Positions 21,738 through 55,456 of a stretch of DNA of 64,000 bases are shown in pieces. The DNA is from Variovorax sp. TBS-050B (GTDB lineage Bacteria > Pseudomonadota > Gammaproteobacteria > Burkholderiales > Burkholderiaceae_C): the NCBI RefSeq assembly GCF_029893635.1, contig NZ_JARXYR010000002.1, positions 4,253,001-4,317,000 of the forward strand. Reading direction: 5' to 3'. Position numbers and translations under genes: made by a program. Within the stretch, counting starts at the first letter, position 1; every line of letters starts with the position of its first letter. Below the pieces are notes generated by a model that saw only the letters and a list, made by a program, of their open reading frames with translations, was not told where the DNA came from and ran no database searches.

Positions 21738-22643
21738 TCAGCCCCGCGGCGCGTTCTGCAGGCTCGCCTGCGTCACGCTCGCACCGGGCGGCACGTCGTC
21801 GGTGATCCAGACGTTGCCGCCGATCACCGCGCCCTTGCCCAGCGTCACGCGTCCGAGGATGGTGGCGCCGGCGTAGATGACCACGTCGTCCTCCACCACC
21901 GGATGCCGCGGCAGGCCCTTCTGCAGGTTGCCTTCGGCGTCGGTCGGGAAGCGCTTGGCGCCGAGCGTCACGGCCTGGTAGAGCCGCACGCGCTTGCCGA
22001 TGACCGCGGTCTCGCCGATCACGATGCCGGTGCCGTGGTCCATGAAGAAGCCGGCATCGATCTGCGCGCCGGGGTGGATGTCGATGCCGGTCTGCGCATG
22101 CGCGAGTTCGGCCACGATGCGCGCCAGAAGCGGCAGCCCGAGCCGGTAGAGCTCGTGCGCGAGCCGGTGGTGGATCATCGCGAGCACGCCCGGATAGCAC
22201 AGCAGCACCTCGTCAACGCTGCGCGCGGCCGGATCGCCGTGGTAGGCCGCGAGCACGTCGCTGTCGAGCAGCCGGCGCAGCCGCGGCAGCGCGAGCGCGA
22301 ACTGCCGCACCGCCTCGGCGGCGGTCTGGTCGATGTCGACCGCGGCGTCGGGCGCGTGGCGCGCATTGAAGTTGAGTTCGAGCCGCGCCTGCAACAGCAG
22401 CGCCTGCAGCGCGGTGTTCAGCGTGTGGCCGACGTAGAAGTCCTCGCTCTCGTGCCGCAGTTCGGGCGGGCCGAGCCGCATCGGGAACAGCGCGCCCTTG
22501 AGCGATTCGACGATCTGCGCGAGCGCATCGCGCGACGGAAACTCGCGCGCGCCGGGCTCGCGCGAACGGCGCTGCGAATCGCGCCACTCGTTGCGCGCCT
22601 CGTGCAGCGCGCGGACGATCTCGCCGACTTCGAAATGGACCAT
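21738..22643 (-). CDS. cysE: Serine O-acetyltransferase, EpsC type
   Basis: 301-residue hexapeptide-repeat acyltransferase making O-acetylserine for cysteine synthesis. An N-terminal helical region (1-175, YHGDPAARSVDEVLLCYPGVLAMIHHRLAHELY) is followed by the left-handed beta-helix (GIDIHPGAQIDAGFFMDHGTGIVIGETAVIG) with catalytic H-x-x-x-x-x-x-x-D/H residues and the C-terminal NVWITDDVPPGASV. The longer N-terminal part marks the EpsC/SATase group. The start MVHFEVGEIV at 22643 was preferred over an ATG 63 bases upstream because the latter lies near the terminator of the upstream gene. Separated from the ssu operon by a terminator. Confidence 0.92.
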   Translation of the reverse strand: MVHFEVGEIVRALHEARNEWRDSQRRSREPGAREFPSRDALAQIVESLKGALFPMRLGPPELRHESEDFYVGHTLNTALQALLLQARLELNFNARHAPDAAVDIDQTAAEAVRQFALALPRLRRLLDSDVLAAYHGDPAARSVDEVLLCYPGVLAMIHHRLAHELYRLGLPLLARIVAELAHAQTGIDIHPGAQIDAGFFMDHGTGIVIGETAVIGKRVRLYQAVTLGAKRFPTDAEGNLQKGLPRHPVVEDDVVIYAGATILGRVTLGKGAVIGGNVWITDDVPPGASVTQASLQNAPRG

Positions 22644-22687
22644 GCTTGCTTCTCCGGTGACAGCGTCCGTTGCACTGTAAAGCAAGC

Positions 22688-22718
22688 AAAAAGAACCCGG
22701 CGCCAACGCGGCGCCGGG
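22688..22718 (-). terminator. Intrinsic terminator ending the organosulfur operon
   Basis: Read on the minus strand: CCCGGCGCC, loop GCGTT, GGCGCCGGG, then TTCTTTTTGC. A perfect 9-base GC stem with a T-rich tail 21 bases after the Mop gene stop. It separates the operon from cysE. Confidence 0.9.
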
Positions 22719-22739
22719 ATTCGCAAGCCCCGGGGTCCG

Positions 22740-22955
22740 TCAGAGCTTGGCGATCGAAACCTCCGTCGACTTCACCAGCGCGACCACGTCGGAGCCGACC
22801 TTGAGCTGGAGCTCGTCGATCGAGCGCGTGGTGATCACCGAGGTGACGATGCCCCAGGCGGTCTCGACGTCGACTTCGGAGACGACGTCGCCGCGGATGA
22901 TCTCGCGGACCTTGCCCTTGAACTGGTTGCGCACGTTGATGGCCTGGATGGACAT
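22740..22955 (-). CDS. Mop/TOBE-domain molybdate-binding protein (molbindin)
   Basis: 71-residue single-domain protein matching the Mop/TOBE fold: AINVRNQFKGKVREIIRGDVVSEVDVETAWGIVTSVITTRSIDELQLKVGSDVVALVKSTEVSIAKL contains the family's N-x-x-x-G-x-V-x-x-I and VTSVIT...L-x-x-G-x-x-V-x-A-x-x-K-x-(S/T)-x-V pattern. Such molbindins store or buffer molybdate in the cytoplasm as oligomers. It is the last gene of the organosulfur unit, 65 bases after metY and just before a terminator. The link to sulfur metabolism may be that molybdate and sulfate compete in transport; that is inference. Confidence 0.92.
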   Translation of the reverse strand: MSIQAINVRNQFKGKVREIIRGDVVSEVDVETAWGIVTSVITTRSIDELQLKVGSDVVALVKSTEVSIAKL

Positions 22956-23020
22956 GGTGGGTTCTCTTTCGGATGGTTCGGGTGGAGGGAAGAATGAAAA
23001 AAGCACGCCTGCGGCCGTGC

Positions 23021-24310
23021 TCATGCGGCCGCGGCGGCGAGCGCCCGGTCGAGGTCGGCGAGCAGGTCGTCGATGTGCTCGATGCCCACCGACAGCCGCA
23101 CCGTGTCCTCGGTCACGCCGGCGCGCGCGAGTTCCTCGGGCGAGAGCTGGCGGTGCGTGGTCGAGGCGGGATGGGTGGCGAGCGAGCGCACGTCGCCGAT
23201 GTTCACGAGCCGGGTGAACAGCTGCAGCGCGTCGAGGAACTTCGCGCCGCCCGCGCGGCCGCTGCCGATGCCGAAGGTCAGCACGCCGCTCGCGCGGCCG
23301 CCGAAGTACTTCTGCGCCAGCGCGTGGTCGGGATGGTCCTCGAGCGCGGCGTAGTTGACCCAGCTCACGGCCGGGTGGCGCTTCAGGTGCTGCGCCACCG
23401 CGAGCGCGTTGCTGCTGATGCGGTCCATGCGCAGCGCGAGCGTCTCGATGCCCTGCAGGATCTGGAAGGCGTTGAACGGCGAGATCGCCGCGCCCGTGTT
23501 GCGCAGCGGCACCACGCGCGCACGGCCGATGTAGGCCGCCGGGCCGAGCGCCTCGGTGTAGACCACGCCGTGGTAGCTCACGTCGGGTTCGTTGAGGCGC
23601 CGGAAGCGCTCTTTGTGCTGCGCCCACGGGAACCTGCCCGAATCGACGATGGCGCCGCCGATGCTGGTGCCATGGCCGCCGAGGTACTTGGTCAGCGAAT
23701 GCACCACGATGTCGGCGCCGTGCGCGATCGGCCGGCTCAGGTACGGCGAAGGCACGGTGTTGTCGACGATCAGCGGCACGCCGTGGCGGTGCGCGATCTC
23801 GGCCACGGCGGCGATGTCGGTCACGTTGCCGGCCGGGTTGCCGAGCGATTCGACGAACACGGCCTTGGTGCGCTCGTCGATCAGCGGCTCGAAGCTCGCC
23901 GGGTCGCGGTGGTCCGCGAAGCGCGTGCCGATGCCGAACTGCGGCAGCGTGTGCGCGAACAGGTTGTAGGTGCCGCCGTAGAGCGCGGTGCTGCTCACGA
24001 TGTTGTCGCCGGCTTCGGCGATGGTCTGGATCGCATAGGTCACGGCCGCCTGGCCCGAGGCCAGCGCGAGCGCGGCGATGCCGCCTTCGAGCGCGGCCAC
24101 GCGCTGTTCGAGCACGTCCTGCGTGGGGTTGTTGATGCGGGTGTAGATGTTGCCCGGCACCTTGAGGTCGAACAGGTCGGCGCCATGCTGCGCGCTGTCG
24201 AAGGCATAGGCCACCGTCTGGTAGATCGGCGGCGCCACCGCGCGCGTGGTGGGATCGGGCGAGTAGCCGGCGTGCACCGAGAGGGTCTCGAATTTCCAGT
24301 TCTGCGACAT
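23021..24310 (-). CDS. metY: O-acetylhomoserine sulfhydrylase / cystathionine gamma-synthase-family enzyme
   Basis: 429-residue PLP enzyme of the Cys/Met metabolism family. It opens with KFETLSVHAGYSPDPTTRAVAPPIYQTVAYAF, has the family's long ENIYTRINNPTQDVLE region (YxRxxNP), and the PLP lysine in VVHSLTKYLGGHGTSIGG (about residue 209). The length (about 430) and the G-x-H-G-x-S/T-I-GG segment fit O-acetylhomoserine sulfhydrylase, which makes homocysteine from O-acetylhomoserine and sulfide. It lies 36 bases after ssuB in the organosulfur operon, a placement that would couple released sulfite/sulfide to methionine synthesis. The start MSQNWKF at 24310 was chosen because an upstream ATG gives 10 poorly conserved residues. 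Confidence 0.92.
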   Translation of the reverse strand: MSQNWKFETLSVHAGYSPDPTTRAVAPPIYQTVAYAFDSAQHGADLFDLKVPGNIYTRINNPTQDVLEQRVAALEGGIAALALASGQAAVTYAIQTIAEAGDNIVSSTALYGGTYNLFAHTLPQFGIGTRFADHRDPASFEPLIDERTKAVFVESLGNPAGNVTDIAAVAEIAHRHGVPLIVDNTVPSPYLSRPIAHGADIVVHSLTKYLGGHGTSIGGAIVDSGRFPWAQHKERFRRLNEPDVSYHGVVYTEALGPAAYIGRARVVPLRNTGAAISPFNAFQILQGIETLALRMDRISSNALAVAQHLKRHPAVSWVNYAALEDHPDHALAQKYFGGRASGVLTFGIGSGRAGGAKFLDALQLFTRLVNIGDVRSLATHPASTTHRQLSPEELARAGVTEDTVRLSVGIEHIDDLLADLDRALAAAAA

Positions 24311-24346
24311 GGGAGGTCTTTCGTCCTGCGTTGGGAACAATGAATC

Positions 24347-25180
24347 TCAGATCGCCCAGCGCAGCGCGTGCGCGGGCGGCGGCAGCCAGGCACCGGGCTC
24401 TCCGGCCTCGCCGTCGGCCGACTTCTGCAGCACGCGGTCGAGGATGCGCTTCTCGATCGCCGCGAAGGCCGGGTCGCCCTGCGAGCGCGGCCGTGCGAGT
24501 GCGATGTGCTCGTCGAGCGCGATGCGGCCGTCCTCGATCAGGATCACGCGGTCGGCGAGCGCGACCGCCTCCTGCACGTCGTGCGTCACCAGCAGCGCGG
24601 TGAAGCGGTGGCGCTGCCAGAGGTCTTCGATCAGGCGGTGCATCTCGATGCGCGTGAGTGCATCGAGCGCGCCCAGCGGCTCGTCCAGCAGCAGCAGCCG
24701 CGGCCGGTGCACCAGCGCGCGCGCGAGCGACACGCGCTGGCGCTGACCGCCCGACAGCCGCGCGGGCCATTCGTTCTCGCGGTCGGCCAGGCCCACCTGC
24801 GCCAGCACTTCCCGGCCCCGCGCACGGGCGGCGTCGGACAGGCCGAGCGTCACGTTGTCGAGCACGCGGCGCCAGGGCAGCAGCCGCGCCTCCTGGAACA
24901 TGATGCGCGTGTCGTCGTGCAGCCCGTCGATCGCCCGGCCGTCGGCGAACAGGCCGCCGGCGCTGGGCGCCTCCAGTCCCGCGACCAGCCGCAGCAGCGT
25001 GCTCTTGCCGCAGCCGCTGCGCCCGACGATGGCGATGAACTGCCCCGGCTCGATCGCGAGCTGCGTGTTGCGCAGCACCTCGCGCTCGCCGTAGCGCTTG
25101 TGGAGCCCGCGCGCCTCGAGGCGCACGCCGCCCGCGAGGGCCGCGTCGGACTGTCGGATGTCTTCGTGCACTGCACTCAT
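24347..25180 (-). CDS. ssuB: Aliphatic sulfonate ABC transporter ATPase SsuB
   Basis: 277-residue ATPase with Walker [10 protein letters not shown] (about 55-63), [34 protein letters not shown] and [50 protein letters not shown] is the SsuB/TauB C-terminal pattern. The start at 25180 overlaps the ssuA stop (ATGA). It serves the SsuC permease two genes upstream. Confidence 0.93.
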
Positions 25181-26157
25181 GATGTCGAGCCTGGTTGGAA
25201 CAGCGCCACGTCGAGCGCGTTGATTTTTCGGGGCAGCAGCTTCTCGGCGAAGAAGGCGTCGGCGATGCGCTGCTGTTCGGCGAGCGCCTCGGCGCGCACC
25301 GGCCGCACCGCATAGCTGCGGCGCGCGTTGGCCTGCTCGATGGTCGCGGTGTCGAGCCCCCACACGGGCGACAGCAGGGCCGCCGCGTCCTTCGGGTTCT
25401 GCTTGACCCAGCGGCCGGCCTTCTCGAGTTCGGCATACACCACCCGCAGCACGTCGGGCCGGGCCTTCGCGAAGCGCGTGCTCGCGAGGTAGTAGCGCTG
25501 GTACTGGGCGATGCCCGTGCCGTCGGCCAGCACGCGCACCTTGGCCTGGCGCTCGGCCGCGGCGAGGAACGGGTCCCACACCACCCAGGCGTCGATGGCG
25601 CCGCGCTCGAAGGCCGCGCGGCCGTCGGCCGGCGTCAGGTACGCGGGCTCGATGTCCCGGAAGGAAAGGCCGGCCTTCTCGAGCGCCGCGATCAGCAGGT
25701 AGTGCGCGCCCGCGGCCTTGGCGAAGCCGACCTTCTTCCCCTTGAGGTCCGCGACCCTGCGCAGCGGCGAGTCTTCGCGCACGAGGATCGCCTGCGCGGT
25801 CGGCGAAGGCGCTTCCTGTGCGACGAAGGTCAGCGCGGCGCCGGCGGCCTGCGCGAACACCGGCACGGTGTCGGCCACGTCGGCGCTGAAGTCGAGGTTG
25901 TCGAGGTTCAGGGCCTCGAGCAGCGGCAGGCCGCTGGTGAACTCGTGCCAGCTCGGCACGACGTGGAGCGGCGCGAGCCGCTGCTCGAGCGTGCCCTGCG
26001 CCTTCAGCACCGCGGTCAGCGTGGACGACTTCTGATAGCCGAGCCGCACCACCGCGGGCCGCGGCGTGGCGCCCTGGGCCCACACGGCGCCGGCACCGAA
26101 GGCGCCTAGCGCGGCCACCGCGGTGCGGCGGCCGATGTTGAAAGACTTCCGGTTCAT
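25177..26157 (-). CDS. ssuA: Aliphatic sulfonate-binding protein SsuA, first paralogue
   Basis: 326-residue periplasmic binding protein. The signal region ([27 protein letters not shown]) contains a twin arginine (residues about 9-10), so Tat export is possible. The mature part shows [60 protein letters not shown] and [14 protein letters not shown], all SsuA hallmarks. It lies between ssuC (10 bases upstream) and ssuB (4-base overlap). A second SsuA-like gene lies upstream of ssuD. Confidence 0.93.
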
Positions 26158-26167
26158 TGCCCTGCCC

Positions 26168-27013
26168 TCACTTCGCCTTCTTCTGGTAACCCGGGTGCCA
26201 GCGCAGCCACCATTGCTCCAGCCCGCGCGCGAACAGGTCGGCCAGCTTGCCGAGCAGCGCATAGAGCAGGATGCCCACGAGCACGATGTCGGTCTGCAGG
26301 AACTCGCGTGCGTTCATCGTCAGGTAGCCGATGCCGGCCTGCGCCGAGATGGTCTCGGCCACGATCAGGATCACCCACATCAGCCCGAGCGAAAAGCGCA
26401 GCCCGACGAGGATCGACGACAGTGCGCCCGGCAGGATCACCTCGCGGTAGAGCTGCCAGCGCGAGAGCCCGTAGGTGCGCCCCATCTCGATCAGTTGCGG
26501 ATCGACGTTGCGGATGCCGTGGAAGGTGTTGAGGTAGATCGGAAAGAACACCGACACCGAGATCAGGAACAGCTTGGCCGATTCGTCGATGCCGAACCAC
26601 AGGATCACGAGCGGGATCAGCGCGAGCGCGGGAATGTTGCGCACCATCTGGATCGTGGAGTCGAGCAGCGTCTCGAAGGACTTGACCGAGCCGGTGAGCA
26701 GCCCCAGCGCCAGCCCCGCGCCGCCGCCGATCGCCAGCCCCGCGAGCGCGCGGCCCGCGCTGACCTTGACGTGCGTCCAGAGCTCGCCCGACACCGTGAG
26801 CGACCAGGCCGCCTTGACCACGTCGAGCGGCGCGGGCAGCACGCGCGTGCTGAGCCAGCCGAGCGACGAGGCGATCTGCCAGGCGACGATCAGCGCCACC
26901 GGCACGATCCACGGCACCAGCCGCTTCGCGACATGGCCGCCGAAGGCGCGCAGCGCGCGGCCCGTGCCTTCGGCCGGCGCGACCGCCGGCAGTTCCTGTA
27001 CCTGTTCCACCAT
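26168..27013 (-). CDS. ssuC: Aliphatic sulfonate ABC transporter permease SsuC
   Basis: 281-residue permease of the SsuC/TauC family with about six transmembrane helices. Landmarks: LVPWIVPVALIVAWQIASSLGWLSTRVLPAP, SAGRALAGLAIGGGAGLALGLLTG, VRNIPALALIPLVILWFGIDESAKLFLIS, and the EAA-type loop IEMGRTYGLSRWQLYREVILPGALSSILVGLRFSLG. Length is typical. The start at 27013 gives MVEQVQELPA, 16 bases after the ssuD stop; in-frame sequence upstream belongs to ssuD. Confidence 0.94.
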   Translation of the reverse strand: MVEQVQELPAVAPAEGTGRALRAFGGHVAKRLVPWIVPVALIVAWQIASSLGWLSTRVLPAPLDVVKAAWSLTVSGELWTHVKVSAGRALAGLAIGGGAGLALGLLTGSVKSFETLLDSTIQMVRNIPALALIPLVILWFGIDESAKLFLISVSVFFPIYLNTFHGIRNVDPQLIEMGRTYGLSRWQLYREVILPGALSSILVGLRFSLGLMWVILIVAETISAQAGIGYLTMNAREFLQTDIVLVGILLYALLGKLADLFARGLEQWWLRWHPGYQKKAK

Positions 27014-27029
27014 GGGTGTTCCTGTCCTT

Positions 27030-28199
27030 CTAGCTTTGGGAGACGAGCCGCGACGGCGCATCGAGATTGGCGACCACTTCGCCGAAGGGCCCCGTGACCG
27101 GCCCGCCGGCGAGCCGCGTCCGCGTCTTGCGCGAGAGCAGCGGGAACACCAGTTCGGCGAAGCGATAGGCTTCCTCCAGGTGCGGGTAGCCCGAGAAGAT
27201 GAACTTGTCGAGGCCGAGCGCCGCGTATTCCTCGATGCGCGCCGCGACCGTCCGCGGATCGCCCACGAGCGCGGTGCCCGCGCCGCCGCGCACCAGCCCC
27301 ACGCCGGCCCAGAGGTTGGGCGCGATCTCGAGCTCGGCACGCGAGCGCTTCGTCCCCGACGCATGCAGGGCCGCCATGCGGCGCTGCCCTTCGGAGTCCA
27401 TGCGGGCGAACGCCGCCTGTGCGCGCACCACGGTCTCGTCGTCGACGCGGCTGATCAGTTCTTCCGCGGCCTGCCAGGCGTCCGCCTCGGTCTCGCGCAC
27501 GATGACGTGCAGCCGGATGCCGAACTGCACCGTGCGGCCCTTCTGCGCCGCGCGGTTGCGCACGTCGGCGATCTTCTTCGCCAGCTCGGCCGGCGGCTCG
27601 CCCCAGCTGAGGTAGGCGTCGACCTGCTCGGCCGCCAGTTCGTGCGCAGCGGCCGAGGAGCCGCCGAACCACACGGGGGGATGCGGCTTCTGCACCGGCG
27701 GATAGAGCAGCTTCGCGCCCTTCACGCGCAGGTGCTCGCCCTCGTAGTCGAAGGCCTGGCCCTCGTGGCTGCGCGCGATGATCTCGCGCCAGATGCGGAT
27801 GAACTCGGCCGACTGCGCGTAGCGCGCCGCATGGTCGAGGAACACGCCGTCGCCTTCGAGCTCGGCCTGGTCGCCGCCGGTCACGAGGTTCACGAGCAGC
27901 CGCCCGCCCGAGAGCCGGTCGAAGGTGGCGGCCATGCGCGCGGCCAGCGCGGGCTGGTGCAGGCCGGGCCGCACCGCCACCAGGAAGCGCAGCCGCGTCG
28001 TCGCACCGATCAGGCTGGAGGCGATGACCCACGGGTCTTCGCAGGAGCGGCCGGTGGGAATCAGCACGCCCTCGTAGCCCAGGTGGTCGGCCGCGCCGGC
28101 GATCTGCTGCAGGTAAGCGAGGTCGACCGGGCGCGCGCCTTCGGTGCTGCCGAGATAGCGGCTGTCGCCGTGCGTGGGAAGGAACCAGAAGATCTGCAT
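27030..28199 (-). CDS. ssuD: FMNH2-dependent alkanesulfonate monooxygenase SsuD
   Basis: 389-residue luciferase-like monooxygenase that cleaves alkanesulfonates to aldehyde and sulfite with reduced FMN and oxygen. It opens [17 protein letters not shown] (the SsuD N-terminus), with [18 protein letters not shown] (the catalytic cysteine region), [41 protein letters not shown], and the C-terminal [23 protein letters not shown] (arginine-rich flexible loop before it). All key SsuD stretches are present and the length is normal. It needs an FMN reductase, supplied here by the ssuE-like gene upstream. Confidence 0.95.
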
Positions 28200-28210
28200 G
28201 GGGTTGCTCG

Positions 28211-28375
28211 TCAGATGGCGAAGAAGAAGCCGCGCACGCACGGCGGCGCAAGGCGAAGGCGCACCGGCCCCGCGTGCGGGCGCGGGCGCGCATGCAGGCC
28301 CCAGGCGCGCGAGGTGGTGGCGAGCACCTGCGCGGCGCGGTGCGGCAGGGTGCGGGAGGTCGCGGCGGGCGTCAT
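28211..28375 (-). CDS. 54-residue arginine-rich peptide coupled between ssuA2 and ssuD (uncharacterised)
   Basis: I do not recognise this product. The reading frame starts with an ATG that overlaps the upstream stop as ATGA and ends 11 bases before the ssuD ATG, so it fits the operon exactly. The peptide begins [16 protein letters not shown], is rich in Arg, His, Pro and Ala (about ten arginines, no acidic residue), and ends [11 protein letters not shown], with a single cysteine and a strongly hydrophobic tail. No signal peptide or long membrane segment is seen. It has no Shine-Dalgarno site of its own, so translation would depend on coupling. High-GC DNA gives random open frames; conservation is needed to prove it is real. 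Confidence 0.45.
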
Positions 28376-29328
28376 GCGGTGCCCGCCGCGGCGGCCTCGT
28401 AGACGCTGATCTTTCGGGGGATCAGCTTCAGCTCGAAGAAGGTGTCGGCGATCTGCTGCTGCTCCGCGAGGATCGCCCGGGTGATCGGGCCGGTGCCGTA
28501 GGCCGCGCGCGCCACGGTCAGGTCGGCCACGGGCTTGGGCAGGCCCCAGAGCGCCGCGAGCTCGGCCGCGAGCGCGTCCTTGTTCGCGTTGCCCCAGGCA
28601 TCGACGCGGTTGAGCTCCTCGATCGCGATGGCCAGCACGTCGGCGTTCCTGGCCGCATAGCCGAGCGACGAGAAGTAGTAGGAGCGGTTGCCCACCACGC
28701 CCGTGGCATCGGCCAGCACGCGCGCATCGAGCGACTTCTCGGCCGCGGCGAGGAACGGGTCCCAGATCACCCACGCGTCGACCGAGCCCTTCTCGAAGGC
28801 CGCGCGCGCATCGGCCGGCGGCAGGAAGACCGGGTTCAGGTCGCCGTACGACAGGCCGTGCTTCTCGGCCAGCTTGACGATGAAGTAGTGGACGTTCGAG
28901 CCCTTGTTGAGCGCGACCTTCTTTCCCTTGAGATCGGCCACGCTGCGGATCGCCGAGCCCCTGGGCACCAGCACCGCTTCCGACTGCGGGCGCTGCGGCG
29001 AGGCCGCCACGTAGGCCAGCGGCGCGCCCGCGGCCTGCGCGAAGATCGGCGGCGCCTCGCCCACGTCGCCGAAGTCGATCGAGCCGACGTTGAGCGCCTC
29101 GAGCTGCACCGGCCCGGCCGTGAACTCGGTCCACTTGACCGAGACGCCGAGCGGCGCGAGCCTCTTCTCGAGCGTGCCGCGGCCCTTGAGGATGCTCAGC
29201 AGGCCCTTCTGCTTGCCGATGCGGAACTGGCGCGCGGGCTGCTGCGCGAGCGCGGAGAACGAAGGCAGCGCAATGGCTGCGGCCGCGCCCTGCAGCAGGC
29301 GGCGGCGCGGGATCGGGAGCGATGTCAT
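28372..29328 (-). CDS. Sulfonate-binding protein, second SsuA paralogue
   Basis: 318-residue periplasmic binding protein with a twin-arginine-type signal ([26 protein letters not shown]). It shares the SsuA pattern of its operon neighbour ([84 protein letters not shown]) but is clearly divergent from it. It may bring a different sulfonate to the same SsuBC. Start: a second ATG at 29328 lies at good distance (7 bases) from GGAG, while the first at 29334 is only 1 base away; I chose the second. Confidence 0.9.
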
Positions 29329-29339
29329 GCGCATGCTCC

Positions 29340-29474
29340 TCAGGCCGAGATGAAGCCGGCGATCAGCGCGACCGCGGTGACGACGATGGCGCTGACCGCG
29401 AGGTCGCGCAGCGCGTGCCAGAACGAGCGCGGCGGCGTCTCGAGCACGGAATCTTCGGTGGCAACGGGATTCAT
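29340..29474 (-). CDS. 44-residue single-helix membrane protein (uncharacterised)
   Basis: The frame encodes a polar N-terminus (MNPVATEDSVLETPPRSFWH), then one strong hydrophobic helix (residues about 24-43, LAVSAIVVTAVALIAGFISA). It has a near-ideal AAGGAG ribosome site 5 bases before the ATG, ends 11 bases before ssuA2, and its TGA overlaps the GAGGAG site of that gene. This combination of own ribosome site, tight spacing and one clean membrane span makes it a real small gene, though I do not recognise it. It could be an accessory subunit of the sulfonate permease or binding proteins; that is inference from context. Confidence 0.75.
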   Translation of the reverse strand: MNPVATEDSVLETPPRSFWHALRDLAVSAIVVTAVALIAGFISA

Positions 29475-29587
29475 GGGGACTCCTTCTTCGGAAATTCAGG
29501 CAAAGCCGGCCCCTTCCGCCGGCGCACGAGGAGCGGGCAGCGGGGGTCTTGGGGGAGGGAAAGCAGGGACCGCGAGAGCGGCCGTCT
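29475..29587 (-). other. 113-base gap inside the organosulfur operon
   Basis: Between the ssuE-like stop and the 44-aa gene. GC-rich; no intrinsic terminator and no clear promoter are visible. It holds the AAGGAG ribosome site of the 44-aa gene at its downstream end. It is the largest break in the unit, so an internal promoter or processing site is possible. Confidence 0.4.
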
Positions 29588-30172
29588 TCAGACGCTACAT
29601 CGCACCTGCGAAAAAGGGACTGGCTCGAAGCCGTGTCTTGCCGGCAGCTGCAGCCCTTCGGTCGCAAGCACCTCGGCCGCATCGTCGAGCCGCTCGGCCA
29701 GCTCGGCATGCACCTGCCAGGCGTTCTCGGGCGTGAGCGTGATCTGCGCGTCGGTCGCGTAGACGCCCGGCAGGATGTGGCGCGCCGAGAGCGCATGCAG
29801 CACCGGCCGCAGCGCATAGTCGAGCGCGAGCATGTGGTGCGGACTGCCGCCCGTGGCGAGCGGCAGCACGGTCTTGCCCTTGAGCGCGTTCTGCGCGAGC
29901 AGATCGAGGAACACCTTCAGCACCCCGCCGTAGGCCGCCTTGTAGACCGGCGTCGCGACCACCACCGCGCGCGCCGCCGCCACCTTGGCGATGGCGGCCG
30001 CGATGGCGGGATGGCCCCACTCGGCGCGGAGCAGCGCTTCGGCCGGGAGATCGCGCACCACGAGGCGGTCGATGCGCGCCGCGCGGGCGGCGAGCCGCGC
30101 GCCCACGGCCTCGAGCAAGGCGGTGGAACGCGAGGGTGCGGAGGGGCTGCCGGCAATCAGGAGAACGGACAC
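29588..30172 (-). CDS. ssuE: NADPH-dependent FMN reductase, SsuE-like
   Basis: 194-residue flavodoxin-fold reductase that would supply FMNH2 to SsuD. It opens VSVLLIAGSPSAPSRSTALLEAV (phosphate loop G-S-P-S-x-x-S-R-S as in SsuE), with VVATPVYKAAYGGVLKVFLDLL (the SsuE T-P-V-Y-K-A-S/A-Y-x-G-x-L-K segment, including a Tyr near the SsuE pi-helix position), LPLATGGSPHHMLALDYALRPVL and a C-terminal region of usual length. The start is GTG at 30172, by family length and because frame upstream runs into sbp2. It follows the second sulfate-binding gene by 28 bases. Confidence 0.9.
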   Translation of the reverse strand: MSVLLIAGSPSAPSRSTALLEAVGARLAARAARIDRLVVRDLPAEALLRAEWGHPAIAAAIAKVAAARAVVVATPVYKAAYGGVLKVFLDLLAQNALKGKTVLPLATGGSPHHMLALDYALRPVLHALSARHILPGVYATDAQITLTPENAWQVHAELAERLDDAAEVLATEGLQLPARHGFEPVPFSQVRCSV

Positions 30173-30200
30173 GAGGGGCTTTCTTTCCGATGAAGGTCGA

Positions 30201-31241
30201 TTACTTCTGCTTCGGACCGTAGATCTGGTCGAAGGAGCCGCCATCGGCGAAATGCGCCTTGTCGGCCGCGGCCCAGCCGCCGAAGGCCTGGTCGATGCTC
30301 ACGAGCGTGAGCTTCGGGAACTGCTTGTCGTACTTGGCCTTCGCCTTGTCGGAGGTGGGCCGGTAGAAGTTGCGGCCCGCGATGTCCTGGCCTTCGTCCG
30401 AGTACAGGTACTTGAGGTATTCCTCGGCCACCGCGCGCGTGCCCTTCTTGTCGACCACCTTGTCGACGACCGCCACGGTCGGCTCGGCGAGGATCGAGAT
30501 CGACGGCACCACGATCTCGAACTTCTCGGCGCCGAATTCCTTCAGCGCGAGGAAGGCCTCGTTCTCCCAGGCCAGCAGCACGTCGCCCACGCCGCGCTGC
30601 ACGAAGGTGATGGTCGCGCCGCGCGCGCCGGTGTCGAGCACCGGCACGTTCCTGAACAGGTTGCCGATGTATTCCTTGGCCTTGGCGTCGCTGCCGTACT
30701 TGCGCTTCGCGAATTCCCATGCGGCCAGGTAGTTCCAGCGCGCGCCGCCCGAGGTCTTGGGGTTGGGCGTGATCACCTGCACGCCGGGCTTCACCAGGTC
30801 GTCCCAGTCCTTCAGGCCCTTGGGGTTGCCCTTCTTCACCAGGAACACGATGGTGGAGGTGTAGGGCGCCGAGTTGTGCGGCAGGCGCTTCTGCCAGTCG
30901 GCCTTGACCACGCCGCCGTGCGTGACCAGCGCATCGATGTCGCCGCCGAGCGCGAGCGTGGCCACGTCGGCGTCGATGCCGTCGATGATCGAGCGCGCCT
31001 GCTTGCCCGAGCCGCCGTGCGACTGCTTGATGGTCACGTCCTGACCGGTCTTGCCCTTCCAGTACTTGGCGAAGGCGCGGTTGTAGTCCACGTAGAGCTC
31101 GCGCGTCGGGTCGTAGGACACGTTGAGCAGCGTCACGGGGCCCGCGCCCTGCTGCGCGAACGACGGCAACGCCGTCAGGGCCATGGCGCCGGCCACGCCG
31201 GCACCGAGGGAAAGCTTGATAAAGTCGCGGCGGATGCTCAT
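30201..31241 (-). CDS. Sulfate-binding protein, second copy, heading the organosulfur operon
   Basis: 346-residue binding protein paralogous to the one at 14332-15351. The signal region has a twin-arginine motif [12 protein letters not shown] (from residue 4), so Tat export is likely, unlike the Sec signal of the other copy. Mature-part landmarks: [75 protein letters not shown]. It is the first gene of the unit and has an AGGA site before the ATG. No cysTWA permease is beside it; it presumably feeds the sulfate permease encoded at 11-14 kb, or binds a related oxyanion. Confidence 0.92.
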
Positions 31242-31377
31242 TGTTGTCCTGCTCAAAAAGGCATATCGATGAAGCCACCTATTCTCAATACGGCATATGG
31301 AAACGGGAACGACCGAGTTCTCAGTTCTAAATAGCCAAATCAACTAAGCAACCGCTTTCCCCCACAGAGGCAATCAA
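31242..31377. promoter_or_regulatory. Divergent promoter region of the organosulfur operon
   Basis: 136 bases of unusually AT-rich DNA between the sulfonate operon (left) and the Fe-trafficking gene (right). GCATAT occurs twice, at 31261-31266 and 31293-31298, 32 bases apart (three helical turns), and TATTCTCAATA lies between them. Position and composition suit a CysB-type activator site and promoter, but I cannot assign -35/-10 boxes with confidence. Confidence 0.5.
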
Positions 31378-31653
31378 ATGGCACGCATGGTTCAGTGCAT
31401 CAAGCTCGGCAAAGAGGCCGAAGGGCTCGACTTCCCGCCCTATCCCGGAGAACTGGGCAAGCGCCTGTGGGAAAACGTGAGCAAGGAGGCCTGGGCCGCC
31501 TGGCTCAAGCAGCAGACGATGCTGGTCAACGAGAACCGGCTCAACCTGGCCGATCTGCGCGCGCGCCAGTACCTCGCGCGGCAGATGGAGAAGCACTTCT
31601 TCGGTGAAGGCGCCGACGTGGCGCAGGGCTACGTGCCTCCTTCGGGCAGCTGA
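31378..31653 (+). CDS. yggX: Fe(2+)-trafficking protein YggX
   Basis: 91-residue protein with the conserved YggX N-terminus ([73 protein letters not shown]). The conserved cysteine (C7) is present. Implicated in iron trafficking and protection of Fe-S clusters from oxidation. It is divergent from the sulfur operon and precedes mnmC by 16 bases, so both may be co-transcribed. Confidence 0.96.
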
Positions 31654-31669
31654 GCACCGTGGCCCGGCT

Positions 31670-33553
31670 GTGAGCGCCGAGCCCGTCACCTGGCGGCCGG
31701 ACGGGGTTCCGCACAGCGCGCGCTTCGACGACATCTATCACACCGAAACCGGGGCGCTGGCGCAGGCCCGCCATGTGTTCCTCGGCGGCTGCGGCCTGCC
31801 CGAAGCCTGGGCCGGACGGCCGCGCTGGCTGATTCTCGAAACCGGATTCGGGCTCGGCCTCAATTTCCTGACAGCCTGGCAGGCCTGGCGCGCGGATGGC
31901 GCGCGGCCGGAAATGCTGCACTTCGTCGCCATCGAGGCCCATCCCGTGGCCGCGGACGATCTGCTGCGCGCGGCCGAGGCCTACCCTGAACTCACGCCGC
32001 TCGCACAGGCCCTCGCCGCGCAATGGCACGGGCTGCTGCCGGGCTTTCACCGGCTCGCCTTCGACGACGGCCGCGTGCTGCTCACGCTCTGCGTCGGCGA
32101 GGTGCAGGCGATGCTGCGCGCGCAGCGCTTCGAGGCTGACAGCATCTTTTTGGACGGCTTCAGCCCGCAGAAGAACCCGGCCATGTGGTCGCCCGAGACG
32201 CTGAAGGCGGTCTCGCGCTTCGCACGCCAGGGCACCGGCCTGGCCACCTGGACCTTCGCGCGCGCGGTGCGGGACGCACTGGCCCAGAACGGTTTCCGGC
32301 TCGAACGGCGGCCGGGCCTGCCGCCCAAGCGCGACTGCCTCGGCGCCGTGTTCGCACCGGCCTGGACCGTGCGGCGCCGCGGCCCGTCGCCCGCGCAGGC
32401 GGAGCCCGCGCGCTGCGCTGTCGTGGGCGCCGGCCTGGCGGGCGCTGCCGTGGCCGCGAGCCTGGCACGGCGCGGCTGGCAGGTCACGGTGCTCGATGCC
32501 GCCGCACATCCCGCGGCCGGGGCCTCGGGGCTGCCGGTCGGCGTGATGGCGCCGCATGTGTCGCCCGACGACGCGCTGCTCTCGCGCCTCACGCGCGCGG
32601 GCGTTCGCGCGACCTGGACCGAGCTCGAGCGCCTGCTGCCGGAAGGGCGCGACTGGCGCGCGAGCGGCGTGCTCGAGCGCCGTCCCGACGGCGACCTGCG
32701 CCTGCCGCCCGCGTGGCGCGAGGACGGTCCCAACGAATCGTGGCGCGCCGATGCCGCCTGCCTGGCCGCGGCCGCACTGCCGCCCGACGCGCCGGCGCTG
32801 CGGCATGCGCGCGCGGGCTGGGTGCGCCCGGCACGGCTGGTGGAGGCCTGGCTGCGCACGCCGGGCGTGGTGTTCCGCGGCGGAGCGCGGGTCGAGCGCC
32901 TGGTCCGCGGCGCCGCGGGCTGGCAACTGCGCGATGCCGCCGGCGCCACGCTGGCCGAGGCGGAGCGCGTGGTCGTGGCCGCGGGCTGCGCATCGCAGCA
33001 CTTCGCGCCCGCCCTGCCGCTGCAGCCGGTGCGCGGCCAGGTCGCCTGGGGCCGCGCGGCCGATGGGGGCGATGCCGCCGCCCTGCCCGCGATGCCGATC
33101 AACGGCGACGGCCATCTGATCGCCGGGGTGCCCGAGCCCGACGGCGCTCGGCTCTGGCTCGCGGGCGCCACCTACGACCGCGGCGACACCGACCTCGCGC
33201 CGCGGCCTGCCGATGCGGCCGCGAACCGCCAGCGGCTCGAACGCCTCGCACCCGCGGCCGCCGCCGCCCTCGCGCCGGCCTTCGCGCGCGGCGAGGTCGA
33301 AGCCTGGGTCGGCATCCGCTGCGCCTCGGGCGACCGCCGCCCCCTCGTCGGACCGCTCGACGCGGCCGCCGGCCTCTGGGTCTGCACCGCGCTGGGCTCG
33401 CGCGGCCTGAGCTTTGCCGCGCTGTGCGCGGAGCTGCTGGCGGCGCAATGGCACGCAGAGCCGCTGCCGCTGCCGGCGCGGCTGGCGGACGCGCTCGGCA
33501 CCGCCCGCGTGCGGGCACCCGGCGCGCCGCTCGAAGGCGGTTCCGAGACATAA
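31670..33553 (+). CDS. mnmC: tRNA 5-methylaminomethyl-2-thiouridine synthesis bifunctional protein MnmC
   Basis: 627-residue two-domain enzyme of tRNA wobble-uridine modification. The N-terminal methyltransferase (about 1-235) has FDDIYHTETGALAQARHVFLGG, ILETGFGLGLNFL (SAM motif) and FLDGFSPQKNPAMW; the C-terminal FAD domain begins CAVVGAGLAGAAVAASLARRGW (about 243) and ends GIRCASGDRRPLVGPL...LGSRGLSFAALCAELLA. Length is a little below E. coli MnmC (668). Start: GTG at 31670 (VSAEPVTWRPDGVPHS), which aligns with family starts; other starts further up have no such match. Confidence 0.93.
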   Translation: MSAEPVTWRPDGVPHSARFDDIYHTETGALAQARHVFLGGCGLPEAWAGRPRWLILETGFGLGLNFLTAWQAWRADGARPEMLHFVAIEAHPVAADDLLRAAEAYPELTPLAQALAAQWHGLLPGFHRLAFDDGRVLLTLCVGEVQAMLRAQRFEADSIFLDGFSPQKNPAMWSPETLKAVSRFARQGTGLATWTFARAVRDALAQNGFRLERRPGLPPKRDCLGAVFAPAWTVRRRGPSPAQAEPARCAVVGAGLAGAAVAASLARRGWQVTVLDAAAHPAAGASGLPVGVMAPHVSPDDALLSRLTRAGVRATWTELERLLPEGRDWRASGVLERRPDGDLRLPPAWREDGPNESWRADAACLAAAALPPDAPALRHARAGWVRPARLVEAWLRTPGVVFRGGARVERLVRGAAGWQLRDAAGATLAEAERVVVAAGCASQHFAPALPLQPVRGQVAWGRAADGGDAAALPAMPINGDGHLIAGVPEPDGARLWLAGATYDRGDTDLAPRPADAAANRQRLERLAPAAAAALAPAFARGEVEAWVGIRCASGDRRPLVGPLDAAAGLWVCTALGSRGLSFAALCAELLAAQWHAEPLPLPARLADALGTARVRAPGAPLEGGSET

Positions 33554-33605
33554 GTCTCGGCGCGCGGTCGAAGCCGCGCACGGCCGAGGCAGGACAATGC
33601 GGCCC

Positions 33606-34505
33606 ATGGCCATCCACTACGACATCACGCACACCACCGTCTACCGCTACAGGAAGCCCGTGAGCTTCGGGCTGCACCGGGTGATGTTCCGCCCGCGCGA
33701 CAGCCACGACCTGCGCGTGCTCGCCACCGACCTGCAGGTGAGCCCCGAGGCGGCGATGCGGCTGATCCAGGACCCACACTCCAATTCGGTCGCGCTCGTG
33801 CAGCCGCTCGGCGAAGCGACCGAACTGCGCATCGTCTGTTCCTTCACCATCGAACACGTGCCCGCGCCGCAGGACCAGCTCACACTCGATCCGGCGGCCG
33901 AGTTCCTGCCCTTCGCGTATTCGGTGCAGGAGCGGCTCGACCTCGAGCACTACCTGCGCCCGCACCACGACGACGACGATGCCGGCACGCTGATCCGCTG
34001 GGCCCACCAGTTCCTGCACAGCGACAAGCCCAACAGCACGCGCGAAGTGCTCACGCGCATGAACGCGCACATCGGCCAGAGCCTCGAGTACAAGGCACGC
34101 GACGAGGAAGGCACGCAGACGCCGCTGCAGACGCTCGCGCTCGGCAGCGGCAGCTGCCGCGACTACGCGCTGCTGATGATGGAGGCCGCGCGGCGCCTGG
34201 GCATTGCCACGCGCTTCGTCTCGGGCTACCTCTACGACGCCGCGCTCGACACCGCCGCGCGCGCGCAGGGCGAATCGATGACCGGCGCCGGCACCACGCA
34301 TGCGTGGCTGCACGCCTACCTGCCGGGCGCCGGCTGGCTCGCCTTCGACCCGACCAACAACCTCATGGGCAGCGGCCAGCTGATCCGCGTGGCGGTCTCG
34401 CGCGATCCGGCGCAGGCGGCGCCGATCTCGGGCAGCTGGTACGGCGATGCCGATGCCTTCGAAAGCCTCGAAGCGGCCGTGGTGGTGACCAAGCGCGACA
34501 GCTGA
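33606..34505 (+). CDS. Transglutaminase-like cysteine protease family protein
   Basis: 299-residue protein with an N-terminal Bact_transglu_N domain (IHYDITHTTVYRYRKPVSFGLHRVMFRPRDSHD) and a C-terminal transglutaminase core with Cys-His-Asp triad in GSGSCRDYALLMMEAARRLGIATRFVSGYL (Cys about residue 184), THAWLHAYLPGAGWLAFDPTNN. This arrangement is the common bacterial transglutaminase-like protease (amidase/peptidase). An in-frame ATG 9 bases earlier (33597) is an alternative start. Cytosolic; no signal peptide. Substrate unknown. It stands alone after mnmC. Confidence 0.87.
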   Translation: MAIHYDITHTTVYRYRKPVSFGLHRVMFRPRDSHDLRVLATDLQVSPEAAMRLIQDPHSNSVALVQPLGEATELRIVCSFTIEHVPAPQDQLTLDPAAEFLPFAYSVQERLDLEHYLRPHHDDDDAGTLIRWAHQFLHSDKPNSTREVLTRMNAHIGQSLEYKARDEEGTQTPLQTLALGSGSCRDYALLMMEAARRLGIATRFVSGYLYDAALDTAARAQGESMTGAGTTHAWLHAYLPGAGWLAFDPTNNLMGSGQLIRVAVSRDPAQAAPISGSWYGDADAFESLEAAVVVTKRDS

Positions 34506-55346: not shown

Positions 55347-55456
55347 CCGAACGCAGAGGACGCGAAGGTTTCGCAGAAGACGCGAAAGAATCCGAAAGAA
55401 ATTTCTGATGCCTTCTTCTGCGTCCTTTGCGGAATCTTCGCGCCTTCTGCGTTCGG
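55347..55456. repeat. Long imperfect inverted repeat, family R, copy 3
   Basis: The left arm begins TTCCGAACGCAGAGGACGCG and the right arm ends CGCGCCTTCTGCGTTCGGCA, matching copies 1 and 2; the centre is AAAGAATCCGAAAGAAATTTC. Lies between fdxA and fnr, 18 bases after the fdxA stop, so once again between two genes read in the same direction. Confidence 0.88.

Follow-up and report, generated by a model that had tools for sequence, protein, structure and literature searches.

What are two very small open reading frames doing inside an organosulfur operon, and where did they come from? The question is raised by a 64,000-nucleotide stretch of Variovorax sp. TBS-050B (contig NZ_JARXYR010000002.1, positions 4,253,001 to 4,317,000; hereafter the window), whose minus strand carries an ssu operon with a 44-residue frame (p44) ahead of ssuA, the gene of a sulfonate-binding protein, and a 54-residue frame (p54) between ssuA and ssuD. 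The original prediction had placed both frames between sbp2 and ssuD, which is correct, with ssuE and ssuA also lying in that interval. We confirmed in the sequence the coordinates, reading frames, AAGGAG site, ATGA overlap and 11-base gap that it reported, as well as the setting in an ssu operon beside SsuA paralogues (NCBIfam TIGR01728). Our best overall explanation, to which we lean modestly, is that both frames are genuine small genes that arose from the turnover of tandem SsuA genes.

The 44-residue frame and SsuA paralogue A3

29340..29474, minus strand: p44, a 44-residue single-pass membrane peptide, in all likelihood the orphaned signal anchor of SsuA paralogue A3
29480..29485, minus strand: AAGGAG ribosome-binding site of p44, read from the sequence
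29336..29342, minus strand: overlap of the p44 stop codon with the GAGGAG that precedes ssuA (TGAGGAG), read from the sequence; translational coupling is presumed
28372..29328, minus strand: ssuA copy A1, sulfonate-binding protein of 318 residues (NCBIfam TIGR01728)

The p44 frame runs from 29474 to 29340 with AAGGAG five bases ahead of its ATG (ccgaagAAGGAGtccccATG), and 11 bases separate it from the ssuA ATG at 29328. Its product has a single hydrophobic stretch (LAVSAIVVTAVALIAGFIS, mean Kyte-Doolittle hydropathy 2.47) and stops after this anchor, with no binding-protein domain and no match in Pfam or NCBIfam. A query of a large protein database returned six proteins. One p44-containing protein (P0007) is called 'VanZ family protein' by its source, which is probably a misnaming.

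For comparison, ssu loci were anchored on SsuD, which was present in 89 of 101 Variovorax genomes, and 87 loci were read; the two other ssuD-bearing genomes (G520 and G027) had only a 70%-identical paralogue and stand outside this set. A search of the wider family covered 200 genomes, found SsuD in 68 and yielded 65 loci from 63 genomes, one of them Variovorax and 64 from other genera. Neighbouring genes in GC-rich loci were taken from sequence landmarks; longest-frame reading is misleading there. Three SsuA types could be mapped, in the family order ssuE - [A3] - [A1] - [A2] - ssuD, with each paralogue present or lost.

By tblastn, p44 was present in 57 of the 87 Variovorax loci, and in 15 of these the anchor ran on into an SsuA-type frame of 325-359 residues, mostly via SAHAQ (for instance the 349-residue frame of L131). 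The A3 position held a free stub in 42 loci (65 residues long in L090), a full-length gene in 20 and neither in 22, and 3 loci could not be assigned. The window p44 ends in GFISA and its stop codon and thus lacks the A-x-A cleavage site, at which full-length A3 mostly reads SAHAQ. Searches of the window genome found no ortholog of A3 (best matches only A1, 55%, and A4, 48%) and none of A2 (best matches 48% and 45%). Since the anchor is fused to SsuA bodies in relatives and the window genome holds no A3 ortholog, p44 is in all likelihood the signal anchor of a lost SsuA paralogue, a relationship that the original prediction had missed.

Mapped onto a tree of 77 loci, the stub state switches 11 times; starred branches force at least nine of these switches, and one starred clade holds both a 49-residue stub (L127) and two full-length genes (L131 and L132). 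Outside Variovorax, 20 genomes had a p44-profile match; among the eight that were read, six were full-length binding proteins, one was a stub and one was unrelated. Within one other genus, a 60-residue stub (L328, genome G169) and a full-length A3 (L329, genome G274) have nearly identical anchors. By these comparisons, A3 stubs arose repeatedly, in one case in another genus. A broken A3 was found at locus L325 of Variovorax sp. PBL-E5 (NZ_LR594673.1), where by eye the anchor meets a stop codon. Apart from it, a 40-residue product annotated as 'hypothetical protein' is the SsuA tail (76 bits), and next come a p54-like gene and a gene whose product resembles the window O-acetylhomoserine sulfhydrylase.

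That identical or similar sequences occur both free and fused would also be expected if the small proteins came first, free p44 and p54 having been fused onto SsuA bodies to give the signal regions of A3 and A2. We consider this order very unlikely, because full-length binding proteins predominate among the matches read outside Variovorax and L325 looks like a deletion intermediate. As a separate observation, the L325 sulfur cluster (NZ_LR594673.1:421568-431708), which lies on a plasmid, also holds rhodanese, serine acetyltransferase and a family 2A encapsulin shell, with a CysB-type regulator, TauD and luciferase-like monooxygenase (LLM) genes on the opposite strand.

The original prediction had called the 44-residue frame real, and its conservation as protein bears this out. 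Across 38 distinct stubs, the ratio of nonsynonymous to synonymous polymorphism (pN/pS) was 0.38 in frame versus 1.06 and 2.33 in the other sense frames, and it was lower still within stub types (0.24 for the GFISA type, n = 18; 0.30 for the SFIAA type, n = 15). The corresponding region of 15 full-length A3 genes gave 0.55, above the stubs' value in a direct comparison of ratios from small sets, which fits a retained p44 product rather than decay. The lowest antisense frame of the stubs was also low (0.45); low antisense values, here and for p54, are expected as a mirror of the third positions of the coding strand. We regard p44 as almost certainly coding.

The 54-residue frame and its family

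28211..28375, minus strand: p54, member of an unnamed small-protein family; its start overlaps the ssuA stop (ATGA)
28301..28348, minus strand: p54 residues 10-25, a predicted helix (predicted fold) and conserved core resembling A2 signal peptides
28214..28246, minus strand: conserved C-end of p54 (last 11 residues; pN/pS 0.24)
27030..28199, minus strand: ssuD, FMNH2-dependent alkanesulfonate monooxygenase (NCBIfam TIGR03565)

The p54 product, encoded from 28375 to 28211, has a net charge of +8, and its gene ends 11 bases from the ssuD ATG at 28199. Open-frame length carries no weight here, as the frame stays open for 383 codons in this GC-rich DNA, and the original prediction had allowed that p54 could be chance. 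That doubt was not borne out: the frame is conserved in other species, has family in other genera and gave a pN/pS of 0.59. Neither the absence of a conserved frame nor random drift with frame breaks, which it had named as contrary evidence, was found among relatives for p44 or p54. Its overall interpretation thus held for the conserved 44-residue frame and the ssu setting and failed in its reserve towards the 54-residue frame.

A p54 query matched 10 of 100 relatives at E 7.2e-7 or better, in each case after ssuA and directly upstream of ssuD; the eight named relatives with p54 are all Variovorax. The large protein database returned one protein, 94% identical. Among the 87 Variovorax loci, 28 have a p54-type frame between ssuA and ssuD (24 counted by script and four by eye: L107, L111, L121 and L128), and in 21 of the 28 its start overlaps the ssuA stop. 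Over 21 Variovorax sequences, this in-frame pN/pS stands against 1.16 and 1.31 for the two remaining sense frames, and the lowest antisense frame gave 0.67. Within the frame it was 0.88 in the first 11 residues, 0.48 in the core, 0.79 in the middle and 0.24 in the last 11. These ratios are those of a protein under selection whose core and C-end are conserved, and p54 is very probably coding. The predicted fold of the window p54 is one helix over residues 10-25 (predicted local distance difference test score, pLDDT, 66.8), a confidence too low for a fold search.

Beyond Variovorax, p54-like frames picked by eye precede ssuD in 12 of the 64 loci of other genera. By plan, members have a 16-residue helix (R..VL..TA.AWG.), a middle rich in Arg and Pro that varies in length, and a conserved C-end, mostly FAISY, LAHSW, FAI or FAV, with atypical ends in L189 (AFNAS), L276 (PISH), L280 (LRISYCLSI) and L325 (LAWAV). 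Members also occur, as judged by eye, after sbp and before an ATP-binding cassette (ABC) ATPase gene (L280), before a vicinal oxygen chelate (VOC) gene (L266), and before a VOC gene together with an O-acetylhomoserine sulfhydrylase-like gene (L269 and L273). Two more (L281 of G246 and L282 of G118), ending in FAISY or FSISY, lie after sbp and before a cysB-like gene, also by eye. A second p54-type copy at L283 (G031:C17:1525172-1525330) has its C-end extended into a longer frame and, by eye, adjoins a DoxX-like gene; it has possibly decayed.

None of the 26 order-search loci showed a p54-like frame, and a p54 profile run over 300 genomes of the order gave five matches at E<=1e-4, four from the same family and the fifth in G755 (E 6e-5). 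With a profile labelled 'A1', run over 399 family genomes, most matches lay outside the genus and were judged chance, of which one, L046, proved to be a member; with one labelled 'A2', run over 299 family genomes, 57 matched at E<=0.01, some of those read being SsuA signal regions (such as L278). Searches of Pfam, NCBIfam and PHROGs returned nothing above cut-off for the family, and a PDB search was also empty. DUF6186 was rejected for one 39-residue member, its Pfam E value of 0.057 falling under the cut-off.

In Variovorax, the family is commoner away from ssu than in it, which the original prediction had also missed. A 27-member profile matched 77 of 101 genomes at E<=0.001. A census, with match and slot lists entered by hand, took in the 91 genomes for which an ssuD locus had been read or a profile match found; it placed the family in the ssu slot in 28 (six of them also elsewhere), only elsewhere in 51 and neither in 12. 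It left out five weak matches (E 2.6e-4 to 5e-4), and G037 and G529, among the 12 in the last class, had one each.

Of 29 loci fetched away from ssu, a member filter kept 26 (L305, L309 and L316 were dropped). These copies encode 65-73 residues (for example MPQRSPYVSPAAQARHVLALTTAAWRIAPSSPHEVARRAPHGYVPIRAMRRFHAATALALLPHSW in L292) and gave a pN/pS of 0.37 in frame; the other two sense frames had 1.21 and 2.02 and the lowest antisense frame 0.49. On their 3' side, 11 have a P-loop kinase gene, four a gene for an LLM oxidoreductase and three another gene; none was recognised in eight, and no ssu genes adjoined the copies within the stretches read. The single-sequence fold of a 65-residue copy has three helices (pLDDT 73.5), again with too little confidence for a fold search.

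The motif GCATCAGGTAACTTGGAATCCGTCTTTG or a near variant precedes 23 of these 26 copies (19 found by pattern and four by eye; not L311, L318 or L320). When a weight matrix was run over the 91 loci from the family and order searches, eight sites scored above 13 bits, and six of these stand directly before ssuA, ssuD, ssuE, cysB or an A3 stub (genes assigned by eye). The motif hints at a sulfur-type promoter, and its sites may be CysB sites. The best match in the window lies at 55411 on the minus strand and is weak (9.3 bits).

These distributions bear on three other readings. The first is that p44 and p54 are cis-acting leaders, translated only to couple or pace the translation of ssuA and ssuD, with products inactive in trans. 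It would suit the ribosome site and stop-codon geometry of p44, the overlap of p54 starts with the ssuA stop in most slot members, the conserved p54 C-end directly before the stop, as in arrest peptides, and the position of all slot members ahead of ssuD. However, p44 is constrained along its whole length and not just at its end, the ssuD ATG follows the p54 stop at 23-36 bases in 11 of 12 loci (14 in the window), leaving room for a separate ribosome site, and p54 relatives also precede unrelated genes, with different ones following the 26 copies away from ssu. A search of window positions 22000-34000 against Rfam gave no match. We therefore find cis-acting leaders unlikely.

The original prediction suggested that the two proteins could assist the sulfonate importer (SsuABC) or the monooxygenase (SsuDE) as accessory subunits. 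Operon position and conservation agree with this, as does a membrane anchor in the operon of an ABC importer, but ssuD is kept in the 45 of 87 Variovorax loci that lack a p44 stub and the 59 of 87 that lack a slot p54, and the separation of many p54 copies from ssu genes weakens the idea further for p54. To judge from these patterns, accessory subunits are quite unlikely.

Lastly, the frames could be decaying, functionless relics of deleted SsuA genes; the parent of p44 is identified, and the plasmid locus L325 has A3 split into a 5' anchor and a 40-residue 3' remnant. This was already disfavoured and is highly improbable, since the stub pN/pS lies below that of the parent when the ratios are compared directly, the repeated origins reached a nearly identical end point, p54-like frames persist in L164 and L166 with no SsuA between ssuE and ssuD, and the p54 family occurs in 79 of 91 Variovorax genomes. 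Neutral codon evolution, as expected of a pseudogene, was not seen, the in-frame pN/pS of p44 and p54 being 0.24-0.59.

A probable kinship of the p54 core with the A2 signal peptide

Paralogue A2 occupies the last position before ssuD in 31 of the 64 loci outside Variovorax and in 10 of the 87 inside, and in no locus do A2 and p54 occur together in that slot. Among the 12 genomes without any p54, six have A2. A model of the p54 core scored above 8 bits on 22 of 51 A2 signals, compared to 1 of 85 A1 signals, 0 of 37 A3 signals and 2 of 1020 shuffled A2 signals. Of these A2 signals, the genus and family searches supplied 41, with 21 scoring, and the order search, one of whose loci belongs to the same family, supplied 10, with 1 scoring. 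A core model built from non-ssu members only gave similar counts (A2 17 of 51, A1 1 of 85, A3 0 of 37, shuffled 3 of 1020). Both the family core and the A2 signals, which resemble those of the twin-arginine translocation (Tat) pathway, carry the motif TA.xWG including its Trp. The window p54 itself does not have the features of a Tat signal, having Arg inside the helix, no A-x-A and a best 19-residue hydropathy of 0.84.

On this evidence the p54 core and the Tat-like signal peptide of A2 probably share a common origin. An alternative explanation is that p54 is an independent small-protein family and that its likeness to A2 signals reflects convergence of Ala/Leu-rich helices. No A2 history is visible in the C-terminal half of p54 or at several loci (those between sbp and a cysB-like gene, or ahead of a VOC gene), and a model from window-type members alone barely scores A2. 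However, convergence does not readily account for the shared motif with its Trp and the identical slot, nor for family-model scores on A2 far above those on shuffled A2 and above those on A1 and A3 signals. We consider convergence possible, if short of probable.

Several observations weigh against the reading of both frames as products of SsuA turnover. The likeness between p54 and A2 spans only about 21 residues; the window-type model scored 3 of 51 A2 signals and 2 of 1020 shuffled ones; one shuffle reached 16.6 bits with the non-ssu model; and one of the 35 rows of the p54-core model (L269) was misplaced. Direction is ambiguous, as fusion of a small gene onto a binding protein would leave much the same picture. 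The usual C-end is lacking in some members (L280, L189 and L325), and an SsuA tail found no support as its source, only L189 matching weakly (6.5 bits, versus 7.2 for the best shuffle). The Fisher p of the census (1.6e-7) overstates independence, as p54 location follows clades. The promoter-like motif is of moderate specificity, shuffled sequence giving 0-3 sites above 13 bits in each of five replicates with a best score of 25, and nothing in the window's own operon matches it well. For both frames, the pN/pS ratios taken alone are compatible with antisense coding, and some of the stub-state changes on the tree may be recombination instead of deletion.

A working model and its meaning

In the turnover model that we favour, A3 and A2 would have been lost from the window operon, p44 being the remainder of A3. 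With its stop just before the cleavage site, p44 would stay an uncleaved membrane peptide with its N-terminus inside. Having a strong ribosome site of its own, it could bring ribosomes and mRNA to the membrane and feed ssuA (A1), and a membrane-directed translational lead-in to ssuA is the simplest working model. As the p44 sequence is under selection, the protein sequence itself presumably also matters.

The p54 frame stands in the A2 slot; its core would probably derive from the A2 Tat-like signal and would have turned into a cationic helix with its own conserved C-end. Away from ssu, family members share a promoter-like element but no constant neighbour, which suggests a product acting in trans during sulfur limitation, a proposal that we judge evenly poised. 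Its targets might be the membrane or the uptake and translocation machinery, although this is a guess and rather unlikely to be right.

The remaining genes of the operon are as follows.

30201..31241, minus strand: sbp2, sulfate ABC transporter binding protein (NCBIfam TIGR00971)
29588..30172, minus strand: ssuE, NADPH-dependent FMN reductase (NCBIfam TIGR03567)
26168..27013, minus strand: ssuC, permease (NCBIfam NF008470)
25177..26157, minus strand: further SsuA paralogue A4 (NCBIfam TIGR01728)

The minus-strand order is sbp2, ssuE, p44, ssuA (A1), p54, ssuD, ssuC, ssuA (A4), ssuB and O-acetylhomoserine sulfhydrylase. NCBIfam names Sbp, SsuE, SsuA, SsuD, SsuC, the second SsuA (25177-26157) and O-acetylhomoserine sulfhydrylase above the curated cut-off, and assigns SsuB with a score under it. 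A4 is placed between ssuC and ssuB, so the operon retains two SsuA genes besides the two presumably lost.

A literature search at title and abstract level, with subscription journals mostly outside its scope, found nothing on the two frames. Their nearest known counterparts are the SsuA proteins themselves (TIGR01728): p44 is homologous to the N-terminal anchor of one paralogue and the p54 family core resembles the Tat-like signal of another. Unlike SsuA, neither has a binding-protein body, p44 ends before A-x-A, and p54 has Arg in its helix and its own C-end. SecM, VemP and MifM are regulatory leaders with a signal or membrane segment and are likewise small, membrane-directed and translated just upstream of the gene they serve, but p54 relatives are also found with no fixed gene following them. 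SsuF, a small protein of Pseudomonas ssu operons, is soluble and molybdopterin-binding-like; p44 and p54 are also small ssu-operon products but have no Pfam or NCBIfam match. The cysteine-rich leader peptides of Streptomyces and mycobacterial sulfur operons are similarly tiny frames tied to sulfur genes, whereas p54 has one Cys, a conserved C-end and a family that also occurs as an independent gene.

The finding is more interesting than first stated, since the parent gene of p44 can be traced and p54 leads to an unnamed protein family. That family, unmatched above cut-off in three profile libraries, is linked to organosulfur genes in a genus common in soil and on roots. More generally, and tentatively, loss of a binding-protein gene could free its signal peptide as a selected gene, repeatedly so for p44 and probably for p54, the latter leaving the operon with its own sulfur-type promoter as a trans-acting protein in most Variovorax. 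For p44 there is an identified donor gene, relatives with the donor and relatives with the stub, repeated origins and a measurement of selection, which make the route from signal peptide to independent gene experimentally testable. This bears on the question of where new small proteins come from: lost genes may be one source.

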